This document shows, piece after piece, positions 8,767-63,820 of a DNA stretch of 64,000 nucleotides. The number at the start of each line of letters is the position of its first letter. Position 1 is the first letter of the stretch. The notes under the pieces are model-generated. The model saw nothing but the letters and a program-made list of their open reading frames with translations, had not been told where the DNA came from and did no database searches. The stretch comes from Desulfovibrio sp. (GTDB lineage Bacteria > Desulfobacterota > Desulfovibrionia > Desulfovibrionales > Desulfovibrionaceae), in the NCBI GenBank assembly GCA_031272715.1, contig JAISTH010000028.1, forward strand, positions 1 to 64,000, in the 5' to 3' direction. A program made the position numbers and the translations under genes.

Positions 8767-11241
8767 ATGTCCCAGGAGCAGATGCACGACGGACACGGTC
8801 CGCAGAATGAGAACACGGGCACCCAGGAACCCACTTCGACGCCGGAGGACGTGAGCGCCACCGAAGCCGCCGCTGCGGCCGAAGCGACCGAGACGACGGA
8901 CGCGGCCCGAACCGCCGAAGCGACCGACACGGCCGGTGCAGCCGAAACGGCCGACGCCACCGCAACGGCCGAGGCGGCATTTGAAGCCGCAACGGCCGGG
9001 GCTGCAGGTGCTGCGGCCGGCTGGCGTGGAACCGGCGCAGGCGCCGATGCGCACTGGGGTGACGTGCCGGACGGTGCCAAAAAGCACGATATGCCCCCCG
9101 AGACGAAGCCTCACGGACTTGCGGAGAAGGCGCTGGAGTGGACAGGGCTCCTCGCGCCCCTGGTCTTCGCCCTGATCGTGGCGGCCCACGTCTGGCACGG
9201 CATGGTGGCCGCCCCTGGACTCTGTCCCAGCGAGGCCCGATCCCTGTCCGTCGTCGGAGCGGCCATACAGAACGGGGCATGGCTCGCCCCATCGGCGTCC
9301 GGCGCGGCGATGCTCCCGGTGTACGTCTGGTACGTGGCGGGTTGCGAAAAACTCCTCGAACTCCTCGGAATGCCCGGACTCCAGGCGGCAGCGGCCCTCG
9401 GAACCGGCATCGCGGCCCTTATCGCGCTTCTCAGCATCTATCTGCTCACACGATGGGCGGGACGAACCCGTGGCGAAGCGGCCGCGGCAGGCCTCGTCGC
9501 CGGATGCGCCCCCATCTTCATGGCCTTCATGCACCATGCGGGGCCCCAATCCCTCGGCGTGGCGCTGGTCCTCGGCGCACTGGGGTGTTTCTGTCGGGGA
9601 TTCCAGTCGCCACACTTCTCCTTCCTGTTCGTGGTCAAGGGCTTCATCCTGTCCGCCCTCGCCGGACTCACCCAGGGCCTCGCGTTCCTGCTGGTGGCTC
9701 CCCTCGCCGCCTTCATCCACCTGTTCTGGCAGGGAAGGCCGGGCAGGCTTCAGAAGGCCGACGCCCTCGGCGGCTTCACCCTGATGCTGGTGATCGTCGC
9801 CGGCTGGCTCGCCGCGGTGACGATGTTCTCGGGTTCCCAGGAGTACGCGGCATTTCTGTCGGGACTCGTCCCCCACAACCCGATGAACGCGCCGGACTAC
9901 GGACTCCTTCCCCTGCTGCTGGCGGCCCTGGGCCTCGGCCCGTGGCTGCTGGTGATCCTGTGCGTCAACTGGGGCAGGGTGGCGGTCCACGCCTTCAGCG
10001 ACCTCAGACGGTCCCGTCAGGTCGAGGATGGCACGGCCCTCTGCTGGATCGCCTTCGTCCTCGGATGCGCCCTCGCCGTCACGTTCCCGGATCCGCCCGC
10101 CATGGCGCTGCTGTGCGGCTGCCTCGCCTGTCCGCTGATCGGCAAGGCCTTGCTGGGGCTTTCCGGAACCGGCAGCAGGCTGTTCCACGGCATGATGGTC
10201 ATCATCCTCGCGCTGGCGGGACTTGTCGCCATCGCCGCGGGATTCGGCATGAGCCGCGACCTGCTCGCCCAGGCAATCGGCGGCGGGACGCCCGGGCAGT
10301 GGCTGGCCGCCGCAGGGCAGTTCAAATGGATCGCGGCCATGGGCGGAGCCCTTCTGGTGGCCGCCGCGGTGCTGGCGAAGTTCGTGGATCTTCGACGGCC
10401 GGCGGCGGGCCTCATCGCCTGCGCCGTCCTGAGCCTGCTGCTGGCGCAGCCGGCGATGCTCCTCCTCGGCCCCGAATTGGCGACGATCGAGGCGCCGAGC
10501 ACGCCCGCGACGCAAAAAGCCGCTCCCGCACCTGCCGAGCCCGCCGCGGTCCCCGAGAAGGCGCCCGATGCGGCCAAGCAGGCGGCTCCTGATGCCGGCG
10601 CCGCCGACAAGAAGGATGCGGGCGCAAGTCCCAAGGGCGAAAAGGCTCCGGGAGCGGACGCCCCCGCCGCCACGCCTCCGGCCGAGAAGGCCCCGGCAGA
10701 CGGCGCGCCCGCCAAAGCCGCGCCTGAAGCGGCAACACCCGCCAAAGCCGCGCCTGAAGGGACGGCGCCCGCCAAAGCCGCACCCGAAGGGGCCGCTTCC
10801 GAAAAGCCTGCCCCCGAGAAGGCCGCGCCTGAAAAAGCCGCGCCCGAGGCGGCCGCACCCGCATCGGACGCTCCAAAGGCCCCCGCCGGGGACGCCAAGA
10901 GCCCTTCATCCGAAGTGAAGGCCCCGGAGGGCGACGCGCCTCCCAAAGCCGTCCCGGAAGGGGTCGCGCCCGACTGGGAGAAAGGGAACGCCAAGGAACC
11001 CAAGGCGGAACGACAGGGCGCCGACACCCCCGCATCGGCCGGCACCGTCGGCAATCCCCCCACGCACACGGGCGACGGGGGACGATCGGCGGATTCGGTG
11101 AGGCCCGGCAACGCATCGACACAGGAGGCGGGATCCGGGAAAGACGCCCCGACAACCGCCCCTCGGCAATCCCCTCCGGAGAGCGCCGCTCCGTCCGATG
11201 CCCCGCCCCACGTCTCGGAGGCCCCGCCCGCGCAAATATAA
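8767..11241 (+). CDS. Multi-TM membrane protein, ArnT/PMT-like glycosyltransferase fold, with Ala/Pro/Lys-rich low-complexity tail
   Basis: N-terminal TM, multiple TM segments, KAAPEGTAPAKAAPEG-type tail. Confidence 0.55.
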   Translation: MSQEQMHDGHGPQNENTGTQEPTSTPEDVSATEAAAAAEATETTDAARTAEATDTAGAAETADATATAEAAFEAATAGAAGAAAGWRGTGAGADAHWGDVPDGAKKHDMPPETKPHGLAEKALEWTGLLAPLVFALIVAAHVWHGMVAAPGLCPSEARSLSVVGAAIQNGAWLAPSASGAAMLPVYVWYVAGCEKLLELLGMPGLQAAAALGTGIAALIALLSIYLLTRWAGRTRGEAAAAGLVAGCAPIFMAFMHHAGPQSLGVALVLGALGCFCRGFQSPHFSFLFVVKGFILSALAGLTQGLAFLLVAPLAAFIHLFWQGRPGRLQKADALGGFTLMLVIVAGWLAAVTMFSGSQEYAAFLSGLVPHNPMNAPDYGLLPLLLAALGLGPWLLVILCVNWGRVAVHAFSDLRRSRQVEDGTALCWIAFVLGCALAVTFPDPPAMALLCGCLACPLIGKALLGLSGTGSRLFHGMMVIILALAGLVAIAAGFGMSRDLLAQAIGGGTPGQWLAAAGQFKWIAAMGGALLVAAAVLAKFVDLRRPAAGLIACAVLSLLLAQPAMLLLGPELATIEAPSTPATQKAAPAPAEPAAVPEKAPDAAKQAAPDAGAADKKDAGASPKGEKAPGADAPAATPPAEKAPADGAPAKAAPEAATPAKAAPEGTAPAKAAPEGAASEKPAPEKAAPEKAAPEAAAPASDAPKAPAGDAKSPSSEVKAPEGDAPPKAVPEGVAPDWEKGNAKEPKAERQGADTPASAGTVGNPPTHTGDGGRSADSVRPGNASTQEAGSGKDAPTTAPRQSPPESAAPSDAPPHVSEAPPAQI

Positions 11242-13277: not shown

Positions 13278-14072
13278 ATGGGCTACAAGACGCCGAACAT
13301 CCTCACGGTGGCAGGTTCCGACTCCGGCGGCGGCGCCGGGATACAGGCCGACCTCAAGACGATCATGGCCCTCGGAGGCTACGGCATGAGCGTGGTGACG
13401 GCCCTGACGGCCCAGAACGGCATGGGCGTGACCGGCATCTTCACCCCGGACCCCGACTTCGTGGCCCTGCAGCTCACGACGGTCCTCGAGGGCTTCCCCG
13501 TGTCCGCGGCCAAGACCGGCATGCTCTTCTCCGCCGCCATCATCCGCGCCATCGCCCCCATCCTGAAGACCAGGAAATTCCCCCTGGTGGTGGATCCGGT
13601 GTGCGTCAGCACCAGCGGCAGCAAACTCCTCGAGGACGACGCCATCGAGGCCCTGGCGACGGAGCTCCTGCCTGATTGCGACCTGCTCACCCCGAACCGT
13701 CCCGAGGCGGAGCGCCTCACGGGCATGACCGTCGCCTCCCTGGAAGACGCCGTCGCGGCGGGGGAGAAGCTGATCGAGATGGGGGCCAAGGCCGTCCTGG
13801 TGAAGGGAGGGCACGCCGGCGGGGGCATCATGGCGACGGACGTCCTCTGCGAGAAGGGGGAGTCCCCGAAGAACCTCTCCCAGGCATGGATCGACACGAA
13901 GAACACCCACGGCACGGGATGCACGCTCTCCGCGGCCATCGCCACGGGTCTGGGGAACGGGCTTCCGGTGCGGGCCGCCGTGGCCCGGGCGCAGGAGTAC
14001 GTCAACCTCGCCCTGCGCAAGAGCTACTCCCCGGGGAAGGGACACGGTCCGGTCAACCACGCGGCGAAGTGA
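13278..14072 (+). CDS. thiD: Hydroxymethylpyrimidine/phosphomethylpyrimidine kinase
   Basis: TVAGSDSGGGAGIQADLKT, KGGHAGG, NTHGTGCTLSAAIATGL. Confidence 0.94.
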   Translation: MGYKTPNILTVAGSDSGGGAGIQADLKTIMALGGYGMSVVTALTAQNGMGVTGIFTPDPDFVALQLTTVLEGFPVSAAKTGMLFSAAIIRAIAPILKTRKFPLVVDPVCVSTSGSKLLEDDAIEALATELLPDCDLLTPNRPEAERLTGMTVASLEDAVAAGEKLIEMGAKAVLVKGGHAGGGIMATDVLCEKGESPKNLSQAWIDTKNTHGTGCTLSAAIATGLGNGLPVRAAVARAQEYVNLALRKSYSPGKGHGPVNHAAK

Positions 14073-17535: not shown

Positions 17536-17781
17536 TGACGGCAACAGGCGCCTGAACAACGAGGCGAGGCAGGTCCCATCGCCTCCATGTCGGGCTTCGG
17601 CTTCGCCGATTTTGCCTCGACCTGTCCGCCGGAGAGCGTCGGGGACTCTTGCTGTTGCTGCAGATGAAGGCGATGGAGATGGCCACGCCAAGAGCTGCGG
17701 CCCGAGTTGCCGGCCGTCCCCGCCCCTCGCGCAGGAGGCGCTCCTGCCACGAACTGGCATCCTTTTTGGTGTAGGCGGGGG

Positions 17782-17810
17782 TTGACGTGGGGCGGCGACG
17801 AGGCTATCCT
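17782..17810 (+). promoter_or_regulatory. Sigma70-type promoter upstream of the HTH-PIN operon
   Basis: TTGACG - 17 bp - TATCCT, about 75 bp upstream of the ATG. Confidence 0.6.
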
Positions 17811-17884
17811 CCCGCATGCTCGTCGGTCTATGGCCGCAACCGCCCACACCGGACGGGCACCACGATTCCCTCGGGAGATCCGCC

Positions 17885-18523
17885 ATGTCACAAGTCGCAC
17901 AAGACATCCCCAAGGTCACGCCCTCCCCTCCAGTCCAGGTTCCCCCACGCCGCAAGAAGGCAACGAAGCACGGTGTCCCTTCTGGGACGGCCACAGCCTT
18001 GTCTCGTGAGGTGCCGAAGGAGGCACCCGCCTGCCAAGTCGAGAGAGGGAAGGGGGAAGGGTCCCTGCTGACCGCCAGCAAGACGGCCGACCTCCTCGAA
18101 CTGACGGCCGAGCAGGTCGATCGTCTGCTGGATGAGGGACGGATCCCGTTCAGCATGGTTGATGGCCATCGCATGGTTGAGTTCAATGATATGGTTAAGT
18201 TTAGGTTCGCAAGAGCCCGGGAGAGGGATGCCGCAACGGACGAGGCCTTCAGGAACGGTGCGGTGACCGTCGAGCAGGCAGCGAGAATACTGGGTACGAC
18301 TGTTGAGATTCTTCTCCGAAGGATCGAAATGGGCGATGTTCCAGTGCATGAGGACATCGATGGGAAGCGTGTGCTCCACTCCGAGGAAGTTCTGGCATTC
18401 AAGGAGACGCTGAAAAGAGAGGGCCGTGCCGCCATGGCTGAGATCATCCGCATGACCGGGGAGACTGGCGCCTACGAACTCCAGACGCCAGAACTCCTGA
18501 AGGAATACTTCGAGTCGCTCTGA
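17885..18523 (+). CDS. Excisionase/HTH-domain antitoxin-like protein
   Basis: Internal ATG of ORF 17816..18523; LTASKTADLLELTAEQVDRLLDEGRIPFSMVDGHRMVEF excisionase-like HTH; TGATG overlap with the PIN gene. Confidence 0.7.
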   Translation: MSQVAQDIPKVTPSPPVQVPPRRKKATKHGVPSGTATALSREVPKEAPACQVERGKGEGSLLTASKTADLLELTAEQVDRLLDEGRIPFSMVDGHRMVEFNDMVKFRFARARERDAATDEAFRNGAVTVEQAARILGTTVEILLRRIEMGDVPVHEDIDGKRVLHSEEVLAFKETLKREGRAAMAEIIRMTGETGAYELQTPELLKEYFESL

Positions 18524-35394: not shown

Positions 35395-35555
35395 GGCGTC
35401 TCGAGGATGTCCCGGGGATCGGGATCGCCTCTTCCGGGCGACGCACGGCCCGTTCCCGGTTCCCGACACATCCCCCGCTCCGGAATTGCGTGGGCGCCCG
35501 CGGGCTGCGGGCGTGCCACGGCACGAAACGCGTTAATCAATCAACAGGCGGCGAG

Positions 35556-36929
35556 ATGAGTCCAGCGGCAAGGCAGAAACGACACGGGACCGGCCACGCC
35601 GGCGTCTACTACAGATGGTCCGCCACGCGGACGGACGGGGAACGGGACAGGATATTCTGCATCATCTACCGCGTCGACGGGAAGGTGCGCGAGGAGTCCG
35701 TCGGCTGGGAACGGCGGGACGGCATGACCGCGGATCGGGCCGCGGGCATCCGGGACGAGCGCCGGACCCTTCCCCCCGAACCGGCCCCGGACGTCCTCGC
35801 GGACATCCCCGAGCGCCGGGACGGGAAGCCCTCCGTGGCGGCGCTGCTGAGCCTCTACAGGAAGGCCCGCCCGACGCGGGCGTGGGCCGCGGACATGTCC
35901 AACTACAAACTCCACCTCATGGAGCGGTTCGGACACAGGACCCCGGAGGAACTCACCACCCTCGACCTCGACACCCTCGTCGCCTCCCTGCGGGAACAGG
36001 GGAAGTCCCCCCAGACGATATGCCACGTCCTGGGACTGCTGCGCCGCACCATCAACTTCGGGGCGAGACGGGGCCTGTGTCCCCCCATCGACGGGTCGAA
36101 GCTCTTCTTCGACATGCCGAAGGTCGACAACGAGCGGACCGAGACGCTGTCGCCGGAACAGCTCAAACGCTACGCCATCGCCCTGAACGAGGAGCCAGAC
36201 CAGACGCTGGCCTCGATGCTGCGCCTCGCGCTGGTCACGGGGATGCGGCGGGGGGCCCTGATGGCCCTCGAATGGGACGACCTGGACTTCGACCAGAAGT
36301 TCATCACGCTGCGGGGCGCGAACGCCAAGAAGGGCAAGACCGAGCGCATTCCCATGTCCACGGTGGCGGAGTACGTGCTCAGGAACGTCCCCCGCACGGA
36401 GAGCCGGTACGTCTTCCCCGGACGCCAGGGCATGAAGCGGGTGGAGGCCCGGGGGATCGCGAACCGGGTCAAGGAGAGGGCGGGACTGCCGGCGGAATTC
36501 CGGCCGTTCCACGGCCTGCGGCACGCCTTCGCGTCCTTCCTGGCGTCCTCGGGAAAGGTGGACATCTACACCCTGCAGAAGCTCCTGACCCACAGCACCC
36601 ACGCCATGACGCAGCGGTACGCGCATCTCGCCGACGAGACGCTGCAGCGGGCCGCCGGCGTGACGGACGAGGTCTTCGGCAAGGTCGCGGGCGGGAGCGA
36701 ACCGGAAGAGGAGCGGACGCCCCAGGAGGAGCCGGCGTGGTACGCCGGGATCACCGTCGAGGACATCTGCTTCTTCCAGCACACCCTGAACCCCCACCTG
36801 GTGTACATCCTGCGGAACATCAGCAAGTACACCTCCATGAACATCCCCTGCGTGTGCCTTGTGCCGCCGCTGCTGGACTTCTCCGGCGGCGCGGGCTGCT
36901 CCATCCAGGCGCGGCTCGCCGCCTGCTGA
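35556..36929 (+). CDS. Tyrosine recombinase/integrase 1 with C-terminal extension
   Basis: ALVTGMRRGALMALEWDDLDF, HGLRHAFASFLASSGKVDIYTLQKLLTHSTHAMTQRYAHL; C-terminal LVYILRNISKYTSMNIPCVCLVPPLLDF. Confidence 0.92.
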   Translation: MSPAARQKRHGTGHAGVYYRWSATRTDGERDRIFCIIYRVDGKVREESVGWERRDGMTADRAAGIRDERRTLPPEPAPDVLADIPERRDGKPSVAALLSLYRKARPTRAWAADMSNYKLHLMERFGHRTPEELTTLDLDTLVASLREQGKSPQTICHVLGLLRRTINFGARRGLCPPIDGSKLFFDMPKVDNERTETLSPEQLKRYAIALNEEPDQTLASMLRLALVTGMRRGALMALEWDDLDFDQKFITLRGANAKKGKTERIPMSTVAEYVLRNVPRTESRYVFPGRQGMKRVEARGIANRVKERAGLPAEFRPFHGLRHAFASFLASSGKVDIYTLQKLLTHSTHAMTQRYAHLADETLQRAAGVTDEVFGKVAGGSEPEEERTPQEEPAWYAGITVEDICFFQHTLNPHLVYILRNISKYTSMNIPCVCLVPPLLDFSGGAGCSIQARLAAC

Positions 36930-37046
36930 CGGGGGCCGTCCTTCCGGACGGACTCTTCCTGTGCGCCCATCCGCATGTCCTTTTGATGGGCGCGGCCCGA
37001 GGGCGACGCGGCCTGCGAGGGTTCCGCGATCCTCGTTTCGTTCCCT

Positions 37047-37531
37047 GCGTCCCGCGGGGGCGCGGGCGTTTCCGCGCATTCCGCCGACCTGACCACGGCC
37101 AGGGCCCGTGTCCCACGGGGGGCGGGCGCTTCCGCTCCATGACCGGGGGCGCCCCGACCGTCCCCCGCATCCCGATGGGGCGCGAGGATCGGGTTTTTTG
37201 GGGACGAAGGCTATCGAATGGAAAGATCGCGTCCCGCAGGGACGTGGGCAGCCGTGGGCGGTTCCGGGGGAACCGGAGTCTCGTCTCCCGCGTACTGCCG
37301 AGGCGCGGAGATCGGGTGTCTTTGGACAGAGGATGTCGAACGCAGAAACCGCGTCCCGCCGAGACGCGGGGTTCGGGCGGCGACGGCCGGGACCATGAGG
37401 TCCATGGAACCGCGTCCTGCGGGGGCGTGGGTAGACGTGGGCGATCCCGAGGGCGCCGGAGTTTCTCCCCCGCGTATTGCCGAGGCGCGGAGATCGGGTT
37501 TTTTGGACAGAGGATGCCGAACGCAGGAACC
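37047..37531. repeat. About 61-bp-period array of imperfect palindromes, 8 units
   Basis: Cores gcgtcccgcgggggcgcggg-like at 37047, 37108, 37167, 37229, 37290, 37351, 37412, 37472; spacings 61,59,62,61,61,61,60. Confidence 0.75.
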
Positions 37532-38137
37532 GTTGAGGAGTGCGGCTTGTCCCCCACATCCCTCGGGATGCGGCCGAAGAGCCGTTCCCTGGACGGTCAC
37601 CCTCCGGCATCGGCGGCGGGAGTTCCCGATGGCGATCCCTTGGCGCCGGCCAGGATCTTCCGCTCCAGTCGTCTCCGCTCCTGACTTCGGAAGGAAGGAG
37701 CCATGGCATGGATGCAGGGCGGAGCCCCCCGCATTCCTGAACTCCAGAGGAGAATGGCATCCGCCGCGATCCTCCGTATCCCGGCGGATCCGGTCCATCC
37801 CTTCAGGCGTTTCGGACGGCCATCCCGGTCTGACGCCGCGGACGGAATCTTCCAAACCGTGCCGTCGGCGTCCACCGCGAGGCGCCTGTCCGACGGCCCG
37901 GGTGCAATCTTCCAACGGCGATGCGACGCCTCGGCGCTCCCGCCTCGGCGCCGCATACATCGTCCGCTCCTGCGCAAGCCCCTGTCGGTTCCGCCTGCGG
38001 AGCTCCGAACGCTAAGCCGCTTTCCGATGCCAGGCGTCCCCTGACGCGGCCCCAGGCCAGCCTCCGTGGCTCGCCAAGCCGTCCCCGCTTGCCGCCGCCA
38101 GACGCCCCTGCCGCGGACTCCTCCACAAGCGCCGCCG

Positions 38138-39559
38138 TCAGTTCCCCTCCGGCGCGTCCTCCGCAGCCGCCGGCCGCCTTCCCTGCTCCTCCTGCCCGGG
38201 CCCCGGCCCGAAATCCAGCGCCGGCGGCTCGAACACGAGGAAGGGGATGCGCATCGACCTGTACTTGTCGATGTTCCGGACGATGAAGACCATCTCCGCA
38301 CGCAGGGCGTTCCCCTTGATGTCCACGGGGTTGACGAGCAGGTGCCCGTACTGCGTCGCCTGCGCCATCGCGTTCCCATCGGGTGACGGGGCGCCCGCGA
38401 TGAGCCCCCCGAAGATCTCGTCCGTCACCTGCGTCGCCCGGTGCAGCGCCGTGTCCGCCAAGTGCGCGTACCGCTGCGTCATGGAGTGGGAACTGTGCGT
38501 CAGGAGCTTCTGCAAGGTGTAGAGATCCACCTTCCCCGAGGACGCCAGAAAGGACGCGAAGGCGTGGCGCAGACCGTGCAAAGGCCGGAAATCCTCCGGC
38601 AACCCCGCGTTGCGCTTGACCCGGTCGGCGATGGGCCAGATCTCCTTGCGCCGTCCGCCGTTCCCGTCCGGGAAGACATACGGGCTCGCCGTCTCCGGAA
38701 GCCCCCGCAGGATCCTCTCGGCCGTCGCCGACATGGGGATCCTCTCCGTCCTCCCCTTCTTCGCGTGCTCCCCCCGCAGCACGATGAAGCCGTTGTGGAA
38801 GTCGATGTCGTCCCACTCCAGCGCCAGCAACGCCCCCTTGCGCATCCCCGTCACCAGCGCGAGCCGGAGGAGGGACGCCGCGACCTGGTCCGGCTCCGCG
38901 TCCAGCGCCGCGACATACCGCTTCAACTCCTCCTCCGAAAGGGACTCCGTCCGCTGGTTGTCCACCTTCGGCAGTTCGAAGTAGAGCCTGGTCCCGTCGG
39001 GCTCCCGGCAGAGGCCCCGACTGGCCCCGAACCTGATGATGCGGCGCAGCAGTCCCAGAACGTGCCGGATCGTCTGGGGGGACCTCTCCCGTTCCCGCAT
39101 GATCGCCTTCAGCGTGTCGAGATCGAGGGTCGTGAGTTCGTCCGGGGAGGCGTCCCCCAAGGGTTCCCTGATGTGGGTCCTGAAAGCGGAGAGGTCGGGG
39201 CCCCATTTGCGCATGGGCTTGGCCCGGCGGTAGAGGTCGAGGAGCGTCGCGATCGTCACCTTCCCGTCGTCCCGCACCGGCACGCCGGAACCGTCGGGGA
39301 CGGGGGCGGGGGACGGGCGCTTGCCGTCCTTGCATTTGGCGGCGAGGATGGCGAAGGCCTTCGCGGCGTCCATGCCGTCCTTCGTCTCGTAGCCGACGCA
39401 TTCCTCCCGCATGCCGCAGCCATCGGCCCAGGTGACGTAGAAGGCGCGATCGGGTTTTCCGTCCTCCCCGGCGCTCCTCCATCTGAAGTACACGCCGGGA
39501 TAGTCGGTCCGATACCTTCTGCCGTGCAATCGGCGCGTTCCTGCGGCCTTCCCGGACAT
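38138..39559 (-). CDS. Tyrosine recombinase/integrase 2 (paralogue, convergent) with C-terminal extension
   Basis: ALVTGMRKGALLALEWDDIDF, HGLRHAFASFLASSGKVDLYTLQKLLTHSSHSMTQRYAHL; C-terminal MVFIVRNIDKYRSMRIPFLVFEPPALDF. Confidence 0.92.
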   Translation of the reverse strand: MSGKAAGTRRLHGRRYRTDYPGVYFRWRSAGEDGKPDRAFYVTWADGCGMREECVGYETKDGMDAAKAFAILAAKCKDGKRPSPAPVPDGSGVPVRDDGKVTIATLLDLYRRAKPMRKWGPDLSAFRTHIREPLGDASPDELTTLDLDTLKAIMRERERSPQTIRHVLGLLRRIIRFGASRGLCREPDGTRLYFELPKVDNQRTESLSEEELKRYVAALDAEPDQVAASLLRLALVTGMRKGALLALEWDDIDFHNGFIVLRGEHAKKGRTERIPMSATAERILRGLPETASPYVFPDGNGGRRKEIWPIADRVKRNAGLPEDFRPLHGLRHAFASFLASSGKVDLYTLQKLLTHSSHSMTQRYAHLADTALHRATQVTDEIFGGLIAGAPSPDGNAMAQATQYGHLLVNPVDIKGNALRAEMVFIVRNIDKYRSMRIPFLVFEPPALDFGPGPGQEEQGRRPAAAEDAPEGN

Positions 39560-39698
39560 GTTCAGCCTCCCCGCCGCCGATGGAAGCAGAACGTCGTCCT
39601 GACGCCGGAAGGCATCGGACGGCCGGATCCCGCCTTGGCGCGCCCCCCGGCGCATCCCCGAAACATCGCCAGGCGCGACGTCGATGTCCGCCCCGTCG

Positions 39699-40217
39699 TC
39701 ACGCCGCCACCCACCTGCACAGTGCGACGCAGGGCATGGCGTAGATCCCTGCGAGAACGTCGTCGATCATGATGCCGTACCCTCCCGGCAGCCAGTTCTC
39801 GCTGGCGGAGACGGGCCAGGGCTTCAGGATGTCGAAGACGCGGAAGAAGAGGAAGGCCGCGACGAGCGTCCCCATGCCGACGTCCTGGAAGGGCAGCAGG
39901 ACCACCCAGAGTCCCAGGAGTTCGTCCACCACCACCTCTCCCGGATCCTTGCGGCCGAGGAGTCGCTCCGCCCGGGTCGCGGCCAGGGACCCCGCGAAGA
40001 AGATGCACAGGAGCAGGAGAAGCCTGAGGGCGAAGGAGAGGGGCACGAAGCAGAAGGGGGCCAGAAGGCAGGCAACGGCGGTGCCCGCCGTTCCCGGAAC
40101 CCATGGGGAGAGGCCCGCTATCCACAGCCGGCACAGGGCGAGAACCGCCCTGTCCGCAAGACTTCTCCGGGGGGCGTCCTGGCCATGGGATGCATGCCGT
40201 TCCGTGGTGTCGCTCAT
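39699..40217 (-). CDS. pgpA: Phosphatidylglycerophosphatase A
   Basis: GLSPWVPGTAGTAVACLLA, DPGEVVVDELLGLWVVLL, FFRVFDILKPWPVS, GGYGIMIDDVLAGIYA. Confidence 0.93.
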   Translation of the reverse strand: MSDTTERHASHGQDAPRRSLADRAVLALCRLWIAGLSPWVPGTAGTAVACLLAPFCFVPLSFALRLLLLLCIFFAGSLAATRAERLLGRKDPGEVVVDELLGLWVVLLPFQDVGMGTLVAAFLFFRVFDILKPWPVSASENWLPGGYGIMIDDVLAGIYAMPCVALCRWVAA

Positions 40218-40634
40218 GGAAGACCTTCGGTGCCGCCCATCATGGGCATGGACGGGGAGGGTGGGCAAAAGGTGCCGGGGGCGCAACGGGGGATCCCTGT
40301 CCGATGGCGGAAGATGGCTTCCCTTGGGGCCGTCGGCGTGGGGAAAAGGGATGTCGCGGGTCTTCGGGGCATGTTTCTTGCTTGATTTCGGCGTCACCCG
40401 TTCCCCGAAGGGAGCGGGACGGTCCCGGCCGCCGGGAAGGGGCGGACGCGGGACGAAACGAGGGCGCAGGATACCAGACATCCACCACATACCACAACCC
40501 TCCGATGTCGGCCCTTCCGGTAGGTCCGCCGCGGTTCCCCTCCCGCCCTCGACTTCATGGAGGGCAGGGGCCGAGGCCCGGCCCGTCCATCCGGAAGCGC
40601 CCGGCAACGAAGCGATGGAGCGAGGAAGGCAAGG

Positions 40635-41096: not shown

Positions 41097-41181
41097 GCCT
41101 GGATGGTGGAATTGGTAGACACAAGGGACTTAAAATCCCTCGGCGCGAGCCATGCGGGTTCGAGTCCCGCTCCGGGCACCA
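41097..41181 (+). tRNA. tRNA-Leu (anticodon TAA), CCA encoded
   Basis: GCCTGGA/TCCGGGC acceptor, AGGGA-CTTAAAA-TCCCT anticodon arm, GGGTTCGAGTCCC T-arm, long variable arm. Confidence 0.95.
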
Positions 41182-42443: not shown

Positions 42444-43330
42444 CTATCTTGCGATGGCCTCATGCAGCGTGTTCTCAACGGTGCGCTCGAAGGCCGCCAA
42501 ATCGTTGTGTTCTTGGGTTGCATCGAGCAGACAGTACAGAGATCCTGGCTCCGTGATGCTACGTATCTTGGCGACAAGGGATGCGCTGACTGAAGGGTAA
42601 CGAATGTTCAGGATACGCAGCAGGCCGTTCTGAATCTCTTTAGCTTTGATCTCGGCATAGCCCTTGGCAAAGCCATCGGCATAGTACTCGGAATATGTCT
42701 CGGTTTTGGCCATTTCTTCGGCTAGGGTTTTGCCCATATTGAAAGCCAGTTTTTTCATGAACGGCGTCAACCGTGCCTTGGCCATAAAATCCTCCACTAA
42801 GTTATTTGTGTTTGAGTAGTGTTTAGACAGTTCTTCGCACGGACCGTAGTTATCTGCCTTTGGCCTATAGAGAAAGACAATGAAGCCGTCAATGATGGAT
42901 ATAATGTCAAGCAAATAATTTAGCAACCTTTTTTTATCTTCTCGATTTCCTCCTTGATAAAAGCATAAATGTTTGACAACCTCATCAGTTGAGTCTTGGC
43001 CTAAGTCGTGCTTCAACAGAAGAGTAATCAAGTCGTCAGGGAAAAGTCCCTGCAGCCATTGTTTACCTGAATTGAGAATGCTTATGAATTAAAAATTCTG
43101 GGCCATATGTAGGTATTCCTCAAACGACACGCCACTTTTGAACAGCGTGGCAATTAGTTTACGTGTGGAGTTTCTCTGGTCAATTAACAACTCAGAAAAT
43201 TCTGAAAGATTTTCCTATTTTTCGAGGGATTTTTACCAAGGATTGTGATTCATCTAGGGAGAACTGTAAGGAACTGCTCATTGCCGTAAAGGGTTTCTCC
43301 GTCTTATGCCACACAGTCGCCTATATCACG
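42444..43330 (-). pseudogene. N-terminally decayed copy 1 of the Rpn/PD-(D/E)XK transposase-like family
   Basis: ORF 42444..43031 matches the C-terminal half of 44421..45650; decayed N-terminal sequence recognisable upstream (gtgtggagtttctc). Confidence 0.7.
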
Positions 43331-43406
43331 GTTCAACGTACTGAAATGGGAGACAACCAATCGGCAAAGGTTATCTCCCATCGCGATGCGGCGCCTGGAG
43401 TCCAAG

Positions 43407-44270
43407 CTATTTTGTACAGGTCTGTTGCAACGTATTCTCTACGGTGCGCTCGAAGGCGGCAAAATCGTTATACTGCTCAGTTGTATCGATCAGACTGTAT
43501 AGGGATTCTGGTTCTTTGATGCTGCGTATCTTGGCATCAAGGGATGCGCTGACTGCGGGATAGCGTTTTTCCACAAAGCGCAGTAGGTACTTCTGAAGCC
43601 CCTTAACTTTGTATTCGGCAAGGAGCTCGTCAGAGCGCTCATCTAAGCCCTCGGCAAAGCCATCAACAAAGTGCTTTGCGAAGCTCTCGGTGTAGCCCTC
43701 GACGTGGGCCATTTCTTTGACTATGTCCTTGCCTTTGTTGAAGACCATTTCCTTCATTAATGGCGTCATCCGTGTAGTAGACTTGCCCATAAAAACCTCC
43801 ACAAAGTTTTTTGTGTTTGCGTAGTGTTTATACAGTACCTTAGCCGACTTGTCGTTATTGGTTCTTGCCTGTGGAGAAAGACTATAAAGTCGTCAATAAA
43901 GGCTGTAATATCTAGTAAATTTTTTTCAACCACTGTTTTATCATTCTCGATTTCCTCCTTCATAAAAGCGTCAAGTATCCTGATGACCTCATCGGCGAAG
44001 TCGTAATCTAAGTTGTGCTTAAATAGAAGGAGAAGTATGTCGTTGGAGAAATGATCCCGTAACAATTCCTTGCTTGTGTTGCGTGTATTTATGAATTCAA
44101 ACCATTGGCCTGATGGGCGTATTCATCAAGTGACTTGCCACCTTTGAATAGTGAGGCAATTGGTTTAAGTGTGGGATTGTTTTAGTCCATATAGACTATG
44201 ATCCTGAAGATGTTAGGTAAGGCCTATGATTTCTTGGGGGATTGTTCTCAGAAGCTCGTAACTTCACTCA
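43407..44270 (-). pseudogene. Frameshifted, N-terminally decayed copy 2 of the Rpn-like family
   Basis: ORFs 43407..43802 and 43766..44065 in different frames match LRDHFSNDILLLLFKHDLDHD...FERTVENTLQQ of the intact copy. Confidence 0.75.
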
Positions 44271-44359
44271 GGGTAAACTGCGTGGCAGTGTCCCCTGACG
44301 CAAGGGATTTGACCATCTCTGCCAAACGATAGCCAATGCTTCATTTTCAGTGTAATAAA

Positions 44360-44395
44360 ATGGGAGACAACTCTTCGGCAAAGGTCGTCTCCCAT
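44360..44395 (-). terminator. Terminator of the intact Rpn-like gene; related hairpin follows copy 2 at ~43347-43381
   Basis: atgggagac...gtctcccat with T-rich minus-strand tail. Confidence 0.65.
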
Positions 44396-44420
44396 CCCGA
44401 TACTCCGCATGAAGTCGAAG

Positions 44421-45650
44421 CTATCTTGCGCTGGCCTGTTGCAGCGTGTTTTCCACGGTGCGTTCGAAGGCTGCCAAATCGTTATATTGCTGCGTTGCGT
44501 CAACCAGACCGTATAGGGTTTCTGGCTCTGTGATGCTACGGATCTTGGCGCCAAGAGATGCGCTGATCGGAGGGTAGCGTTTTTCTACAATGCTCAGCAG
44601 GCATTTCTGAAGCGCCTTGGCTTCGCCCTTGGCTTCGCCCTCGGCTAAGCCCTTGGCTAAGCCCTTGGCTTCGCCCTCGGCTATGAGATTTTCTTCTTTG
44701 ATGTTTAAGGCCATTTCCTTCAAGAACGGCGTCAATCGTGTAGTAGTCTTGCCCATAAAACCCTCCACACAGTTTTCTTTGTTTGTGTAGTGTTTAGACA
44801 GCGCCCTAGCCGATTTGTCGTTGTTGGCCCTTGGTCTGTCGAGAAAGACTATAAAGTCGCCAATGAGGTCTGCAATATAAAATGAATAATTTGGCACCCC
44901 CTTTTTATCTTTCTCGATTTCCTCCTTCGTAAAAGCGTCTAATGTCTTGACAACCTCATCGACGGAGTCGTGGTCTAAGTCGTGTTTAAACAGGAGGAGA
45001 AGTATATCGTTGGAGAAATGATCCCGTAACAACTCCTTGCTTGTGTTGCGTATACTTATAAATTCAAACTTCAGGTCGAGTGGGGCGTATTCATCAAGTG
45101 ATTTTCCGCCTTTGACCAGTGAAGCAAATGGCTTAAGTGTGGAGTTTCTCCGGCCAGTATAAATAAAAACCGTGAAAACTCTGGGTAGCGCCCCATATTT
45201 TCTGAGGGATTCTTCCCCGAAGCGCTGTAAGATCAAATTGTGGTAATTATAGAATTGCCACGTATTTTTTTTGCTGATAGACGTATTGAATTCGATCAAC
45301 AGGTAGTGCCACTGACCGGATCCGCCATCTGTGGTGAATTGGAATCTAAACAGTATGTCGCAAATTTTGTTTTTAAGCCCGCTACTGAAGAAATTTGTGT
45401 CTAGCTGCTCGATGGTGTCAATATCTACCTGATTGTAGACTTTGTTAGTGAGAACAGATTTGATAAGGCCTTTTATGAATTTTGCTCCCCATTTCCTACC
45501 GAAAACGTCAGATGCATTACGCCTTGAAATGTTTAAGTCAGTAGTGCTCGTTGTGATGCTGGGAGAAGGGTTTGTAGCGGCCACAGGGGCCGCATCCAAT
45601 GTGGTATCTGGAGCGGCATTCGCCGCATTATCGGGGGTGTTTTTAGACAT
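44421..45650 (-). CDS. Rpn family recombination-promoting nuclease / PD-(D/E)XK transposase-like protein
   Basis: NISRRNASDVFGRKWGAKFIKGLIKSVLTNKVYNQVDIDTIEQLDTNFF, LLIEFNTSISKKNTWQFYNYHNLILQRF; C-terminal AKGLAKGLAEGEAKGEAK. Confidence 0.75.
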   Translation of the reverse strand: MSKNTPDNAANAAPDTTLDAAPVAATNPSPSITTSTTDLNISRRNASDVFGRKWGAKFIKGLIKSVLTNKVYNQVDIDTIEQLDTNFFSSGLKNKICDILFRFQFTTDGGSGQWHYLLIEFNTSISKKNTWQFYNYHNLILQRFGEESLRKYGALPRVFTVFIYTGRRNSTLKPFASLVKGGKSLDEYAPLDLKFEFISIRNTSKELLRDHFSNDILLLLFKHDLDHDSVDEVVKTLDAFTKEEIEKDKKGVPNYSFYIADLIGDFIVFLDRPRANNDKSARALSKHYTNKENCVEGFMGKTTTRLTPFLKEMALNIKEENLIAEGEAKGLAKGLAEGEAKGEAKALQKCLLSIVEKRYPPISASLGAKIRSITEPETLYGLVDATQQYNDLAAFERTVENTLQQASAR

Positions 45651-52659: not shown

Positions 52660-52986
52660 CGCATCGGGAGTTGCCGTTCGTCTTCCCTTGCGTTGTCGGG
52701 CGCGGCGCATCGGCGTGACGCGCCATCGGGGTGCATGTCGCCAATGCCCCAGGAACGGCACCGCAACAACAACGCCGTGCGGCGGGCCGCGAACGTCCCA
52801 ATCCGCATCCTGTCCTTCGGGCGGGATGTCCTCGCCAGATACTGCCCTTCGGGGGGGATGCCTCGTCCTGCGTCTTGCGCCTTCAGGGAACTCCCGGGGA
52901 CGTCACACGAGTCGCCCTGGGATGGACCCTCCGGCCGTTCCGCGGATTCCCCGGGGCCGTCACGGGGATGTCCCCACAGACGCGCC

Positions 52987-53158
52987 GCAGACGCCCCTTG
53001 GGCGCCCCACGGACGCCCCTTGGGCGCCCCACGGACGCCCCTTGGGCGCCCCACGGACGCCCCGCAGATGCGCCACGGACGCCCCGCAGATGCGCCACGG
53101 ACGCCCCGCAGATGCGCCACGGACGCCCCGCAGATGCGCCACGGACGCCCCACGGCCT
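52987..53158. repeat. 22-bp tandem array, ~7.5 copies in two sub-variants
   Basis: acggacgccccttgggcgcccc x3, then acggacgccccgcagatgcgcc x4. Confidence 0.95.
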
Positions 53159-59090: not shown

Positions 59091-59215
59091 CCAATGGAAC
59101 CATCTCGCTGGCGGGTTGTTGGAGCCACACTGCAGGTGGCCTGATGGAGCCACCCCGGAGGCACCTGAAGGAGCCACCCTGCAGGTGGGCCGTTGGAGCC
59201 ACGACAAGGTGGAAT
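59091..59215. repeat. Imperfect ~24-26-bp tandem repeat, ~5 copies
   Basis: t(g)ttggagccac.ctgcaggtggcc-type units. Confidence 0.8.
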
Positions 59216-62884: not shown

Positions 62885-63360
62885 ATTCGTCGTCCCCTAC
62901 ATTCTGCATTGTGACACCCGCAGCAAGGGTGCCTTGGTGGAGTTTGGCCCCTGGTGTCTGGCGTCCCCCTGAATGCGCTCTGGACTGACGCCCAAGCACT
63001 CGGCGACACCGGCCGACTGCCGTGCGAGAACACCGTGGCGGCATGGATGCCAGCGCATCGGAGTGAATGCCTCAGGGCGGCGCAGGTCATGAGGAACCGG
63101 ACAATATCAGTCAGCGTACACGAAACGGCAGGGCAGGGCAACATCAAGTCTGCAATTGCTGGACGTGGCCCGGTTGGCCGACTTTAAAGTGATTTGTCGA
63201 TGGGGTGTCTCGTCAGTCGTGTGCCGACTCCACGAGGATGGCATGGTTGTCACGACTCGATTAACTTCCACGCCCAGAATAAGCCCACGCAGGCAGAATT
63301 GATGGTCCTCGGGAGCGTCGTCATAAAGAAGTCCGTTTTTGCTGACGGTGCCACCTGCCT

Positions 63361-63820
63361 TGCCCGCCTCTTGGCCTTTGGCCGTGCCTGCGGATGGCTC
63401 ATGAACGTGCTGACGGCCGGCCCTGGACATGCCTGCCCGCGGCCCCTGGCCGTGCCTGCGGGTGGTTCCAAGCCGTGCTTGCGGATGGCTCATGAACGTG
63501 CTGACGGCCGGCCCCTGGACATGTCTGCCCGTGGCCCCTGGCCGTGCCTGCGGGTGGTTCCAAGCCGTGCTTGCGGATGGCTCCTGAACGTGCTGACGGC
63601 CGGCCCCTGGACATGCCTGCCCGTGGCCCCTAGCCGTGCCTGCGGATGGCTCCAAGCCGTGCTTGCGGATGGCTCCTGAACGTGTTGACGGCCGGCCCCT
63701 GGCCGTGCCTGCGGATGGCTCATGGACATGCCGACGGTTGCCCCCTGGCTTGTCCGCCGAGTGGCCCACTGCCGTGGCCCCGGGTGGTTCCTGAACGTGC
63801 GCAAAGGCGGCTCCAGAACC
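63361..63820. repeat. 23-bp tandem array, ~20 units, with 92-bp (4x23) higher-order periodicity
   Basis: tgcttgcggatggctcatgaacg / tgctgacggccggcccctggaca / tgcctgcccgtggcccctggccg / tgcctgcgggtggttccaagccg cycle. Confidence 0.95.

Follow-up and report, generated by a model that had tools for sequence, protein, structure and literature searches.

What is the row of palindromes that lies in the 1.2-kb gap separating two convergent paralogous tyrosine integrase genes in this Desulfovibrio genome, and how did it arise? The window analyzed here is a stretch of 64,000 nucleotides within the 71.5-kb contig C79 of a 2.99-Mb assembly (101 contigs, ~80% complete). Eight imperfect palindromic cores of 21 bp were found between positions 37045 and 37490, one every 59–62 bp. 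The cores start at 37045, 37106, 37165, 37227, 37288, 37349, 37410, and 37470, and the core-to-core spacings are thus 61, 59, 62, 61, 61, 61, and 60 bp. Their consensus is CCGCGTCCCGCNGGGACGCGG. The features of the region are as follows.

35553-36929, + strand: integrase A, a tyrosine recombinase (PF00589) with catalytic residues apparently present
37045-37065, + strand: core of unit 1, CTGCGTCCCGCGGGGGCGCGG; linker without clear relation to the others
37106-37126, + strand: core of unit 2, the most diverged; linker without clear relation to the others
37165-37226, + strand: unit 3, core and type B linker; related to units 5 and 8 as an older copy (linker z 6.1 and 5.5)
37227-37287, + strand: unit 4, core and type A linker (linker z 6.9 with unit 7)
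37288-37348, + strand: unit 5, core and type B linker (linker z 11 with unit 8)
37349-37409, + strand: unit 6, core and a unique type C linker; its dyad is the most complete of the eight (9 of 10 pairs)
37410-37469, + strand: unit 7, type A; a duplicate of unit 4 at a 183-bp offset (124-bp match, 85.5%)
37470-37530, + strand: unit 8, type B; a duplicate of unit 5 at a 183-bp offset
37533-37598, no strand assigned: long imperfect hairpin bordering the array on the right (z of folding -4.57 for the + strand and -2.02 for the - strand)
38138-39655, - strand: integrase B, a convergent paralogue of A (PF00589), 56% identical to A

The sequence-only reading had reported eight palindromic copies at 59–62 bp, and this was borne out by comparison with shuffled sequences. 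The mean identity of the eight chained 21-mers is 0.80; 40 dinucleotide shuffles, in which any period from 40 to 80 was allowed, reached no more than 0.64. The statistic remains significant when the youngest duplicate, that at 183 bp, is left out (0.80 vs at most 0.66 in shuffles). The 61-bp autocorrelation that had been proposed as a check was also recovered against shuffled sequence (z 4.6 at lag 61 and 3.3 at lag 122), the highest lag being 182. The best value over all lags is not decisive alone (0.395 observed; largest shuffled maximum, 0.409), because the spacing of the array varies. Matches to the consensus with three or fewer mismatches are confined to the array within the window, where 0.03 would be expected by chance. 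Relaxed tandem repeat finding returned periods of 122 and 61 bp, while default settings did not detect the array. Extra copies suspected by eye near 36988, 37552, and 37771 were ruled out by a position-weight scan. Judging from a period (61/122) that is not a multiple of 3 and from the position between the integrase gene ends at 36929 and 38138, the array is a non-coding, DNA-level repeat; the sequence-only reading was right in describing it as such, with imperfect palindromes in a 61-bp rhythm between two recombinase genes.

How are the units related to each other? The intervening segments had been put at about 30 bp, but the actual linkers beyond the 21-bp core are 38–41 bp in length. They had also been described as mostly different, with three related blocks. 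The three related blocks were confirmed: units 3, 5, and 8 carry a type B linker (z between 5.5 and 11 for the pairs), but a further type, A, is common to units 4 and 7 (z 6.9). In total, five of the eight linkers fall into two duplicated types, and the others have no clear relation. Written by linker type, the array reads x-x-B-A-B-C-A-B. Two longer blastn matches span core and linker alike: 37228-37351 matches 37411-37532 over 124 bp with 85.5% identity, and 37159-37248 matches 37282-37370 over 90 bp with 72% identity. In the former, units 4 and 5 recur as units 7 and 8 at a distance of 183 bp. Since the linkers were copied in blocks, the "spacers" of the array are not independent of each other, and since the repeats at ~122 and ~183 bp take in the linkers, the array grew by such duplications.

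The cores have a clear dyad, with an average of 6.6 out of 10 Watson-Crick pairs compared with 2.7 in background 21-mers, the copies not being independent. Was the palindrome preferentially maintained? In the four pairs within linker types, the core identities are 0.67, 0.62, 0.95, and 0.81 and the linker identities are 0.71, 0.71, 0.90, and 0.75. The averages are 0.76 for the cores and 0.77 for the linkers; thus, the palindrome has not been preferentially kept among the recognizable duplicates. Between linker types, in contrast, core identity still amounts to 52–86%, but linker identity does not exceed chance. This likeness of the cores is the only trait of the array left unexplained by plain neutral duplication of one 61-bp unit; it calls for an older constraint, homogenization of the palindrome, or linkers of independent origin.

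Do the flanking genes explain the array? When their alignment was inspected by eye, integrases A and B were seen to retain the positions typical of a tyrosine recombinase (R, K, HxxR, H, and Y). The two genes diverge by 0.33, 0.27, and 0.41 at the three codon positions, values that alone are no proof of strong purifying selection. Most relatives in the genus can be aligned no further than about residue 376–390 of integrase A. Thus, the ~80-residue C-terminal extension, which is common to integrases A and B and was not recognized elsewhere in the genus alignments, seems peculiar to this pair. The closest plasmid-borne relatives of the integrase were found in Lawsonia. Twin integrases that converge in this way are an unusual setting, which may have a meaning. 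The idea that the integrases were duplicated in inverted orientation, giving homologous downstream regions, was ruled out: the homology between A and B stops where the genes end, which leaves the array outside any mirrored duplication. Integration linked to a tRNA was likewise rejected, as another gene intervenes before the tRNA-Leu gene at 41097 and a tRNA was found in none of 29 related integrase loci. The neighboring gene at 39699-40226, presumably pgpA, was found in 68 other genomes of the genus in an empty-site comparison; in the 11 of these 68 loci that were examined, no integrase related to A or B lies within ~1.5 kb of the homologue. Further along, on the - strand from 42444 to 45650, several successive ORFs (42444-43031, 43407-43802, and 44421-45650) appear to be related, as if they were copies from one repeated gene family.

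Is the array found in other genomes? When 79 genomes of the genus were searched with a covariance model built on the unit, all eight copies were recovered, and elsewhere there were only single weak matches. Two such matches in the same genome (L009 and L061) were inspected, and both lie in apparently coding sequence. The sequence-only reading had held that a lack of conservation beside related recombinases would speak against it, and conservation is indeed lacking: the array is next to none of the 29 related integrase loci and nowhere else in the 79 genomes. Any tandem array of at least 120 bp was found at only one of the 29 loci, with a period of 42–45 bp. In blastn searches, the array was absent from 297 genomes of the order, with a single marginal match of 48 bp that contained no unit according to the model. 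Two marginal DNA matches in other genera (L002 and L086) were without a unit by the model, and blastn of the region against phage and plasmid records gave no match. As far as these searches can tell, the array occurs in a single species.

The same genome has other tandem arrays. In ~243 kb sampled, I found further GC-rich arrays with non-triplet and often nested periods (22, 23/92, 98, 79, and 19/38 bp). Two are in the window, at 52972-53155 (11 and 22 bp) and at 63342-63800 (23 and 92 bp; more narrowly delimited, 63379-63732), and three are in the stretch L071, at 8928-9233 (98 bp), 13811-13944 (19 and 38 bp), and 17560-17999 (79 bp). Overlapping ORFs occur on both strands in the GC-rich DNA of these arrays. 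A minisatellite reading of the palindrome array is thus unremarkable in this genome. Two other repeats were seen as well. A 25-bp tandem repeat at 59094-59202 has a unit that holds the palindrome CCACC-CTGCA-GGTGG, while positions 2-2827 of the stretch L066 consist of an 81/243-bp tandem repeat of ~35 copies, whose period is a multiple of 3 and which is probably a gene for a repetitive protein.

Given the observed periodicity, the nested duplication, the absence of conservation elsewhere, and the other non-triplet arrays of the genome, the array is probably (at a rough probability of 0.62) a species-specific intergenic minisatellite of imperfect palindromes that has grown by stepwise duplication and has since drifted, with at most a passive role at the 3′ ends of the genes. 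The units lie head to tail and stand out significantly against shuffles. Like bacterial intergenic minisatellites or variable-number tandem repeats, the array is non-coding and GC-rich, has nested periods, and occurs in one species among those searched. Unlike them, its unit has a clear dyad, and at least two linker types alternate as A-B. The likeness of the cores across linker types, the spacing held within 59–62 bp, and the twin-integrase setting speak against a plain minisatellite.

Could the array instead be one of the known kinds of palindromic or spaced repeats? Some type I CRISPR arrays have a comparable ~61-bp period with palindromic repeats, and it had been suggested that the locus, although not an intact CRISPR array, might be a decayed one. 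The former point was correct. The latter is extremely improbable, because CRISPR repeats should be near-identical, whereas the core identities here range from 0.52 to 0.95; because spacers should be unrelated and diverse, whereas the linkers here recur in duplicated blocks; and because cas1, the only cas gene sought, was not found (no Cas1 match, PF01867, in the ~80% complete assembly). Tandem repeats make up 54% of the false CRISPRs in PMC5294841. The present array resembles those in its superficial repeat-spacer pattern, the absence of cas genes, and the non-diverse spacers, but it stands apart by its far more diverged repeats, and tandem repeat finding at default settings overlooks it. Tandem clusters of palindromes together with their flanks have been documented for REPINs (PMC3116915), and the array is similar in that palindromes with flanks stand in tandem near a recombinase-type gene. 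It differs from REP/REPIN clusters in that no Y1 (RAYT) transposase (PF01797) was found in the ~80% complete assembly and the palindrome is not scattered through the genome in extragenic copies, good matches being restricted to the array. A structured or small RNA locus, which had also been considered because palindromic units could form RNA hairpins, is very improbable. The array RNA folds at the level of shuffles on both strands (z -0.54 and -0.31), and nothing relevant to the array was found in Rfam at either gathering or permissive thresholds. The covariance folding that had been recommended showed stability like that of shuffles and variation in the dyad that is not compensatory: 87.5% of cells are paired compared with a shuffled mean of 86.7%, and there is one double change.

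Two further explanations ascribe a function to the palindromes. They may be bound by one of the integrases, by both, or by a regulator of theirs, and would then be accessory recombination sites or an autoregulatory operator array. Their location between paralogous recombinases with apparently intact catalytic residues, their dyad symmetry, the cores common to linker types whose linkers are not, and the restriction of the motif cluster to this intergenic region of the genome are consistent with such sites. Against this, the array is missing beside the 29 related integrases and elsewhere in the genus, it is located where both genes have their 3′ ends and not at a promoter or a recognized attachment site, and the cores within duplicates are kept no better than the linkers. 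I therefore regard this explanation as unlikely. A more specific version, in which the palindromes are species-specific operator or accessory recombination sites co-acquired with the C-terminally extended convergent integrase pair and would control or perform local rearrangement, is distinctly improbable. An integrase binding-site role is the most interesting alternative left, although an unsupported one. The palindromes might also be a tandemly amplified transcription-end region, in which hairpins, some followed by T runs, would stop or stabilize both convergent 3′ ends. The genes are convergent, unit 3 reads CCCGAT-(11)-ATCGGGTTTTTT, unit 8 has a T run, and the strong hairpin at 37533-37598 is possibly a transcript-end structure for the two integrase genes. 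But the terminator scan found a single site in the region, at 36960-36977 outside the array, where 0.7 would be expected, and the whole array folds no better than shuffles. This explanation is likewise unlikely.

It seems best, then, to return to a minisatellite of imperfect palindromes. The starting point may have been an older set of similar GC-rich palindromes ~61 bp apart. The set would then have grown in no fewer than two larger tandem duplications, an earlier one spanning ~122 bp (the A-B pair) and a younger one spanning ~183 bp (the A-B-C block), presumably through replication slippage or unequal recombination, and near-neutral drift may have followed. The array has no dedicated partner gene, and its role would be passive at most, namely to form hairpins, as DNA or RNA, at the 3′ ends of the convergent integrase genes. 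As a minisatellite, the array has little import, except that it illustrates cleanly how a palindromic unit duplicated in nested fashion can take on the geometry of CRISPR. If the palindromes were integrase sites, they would define an arrangement of a site array with twin integrases.
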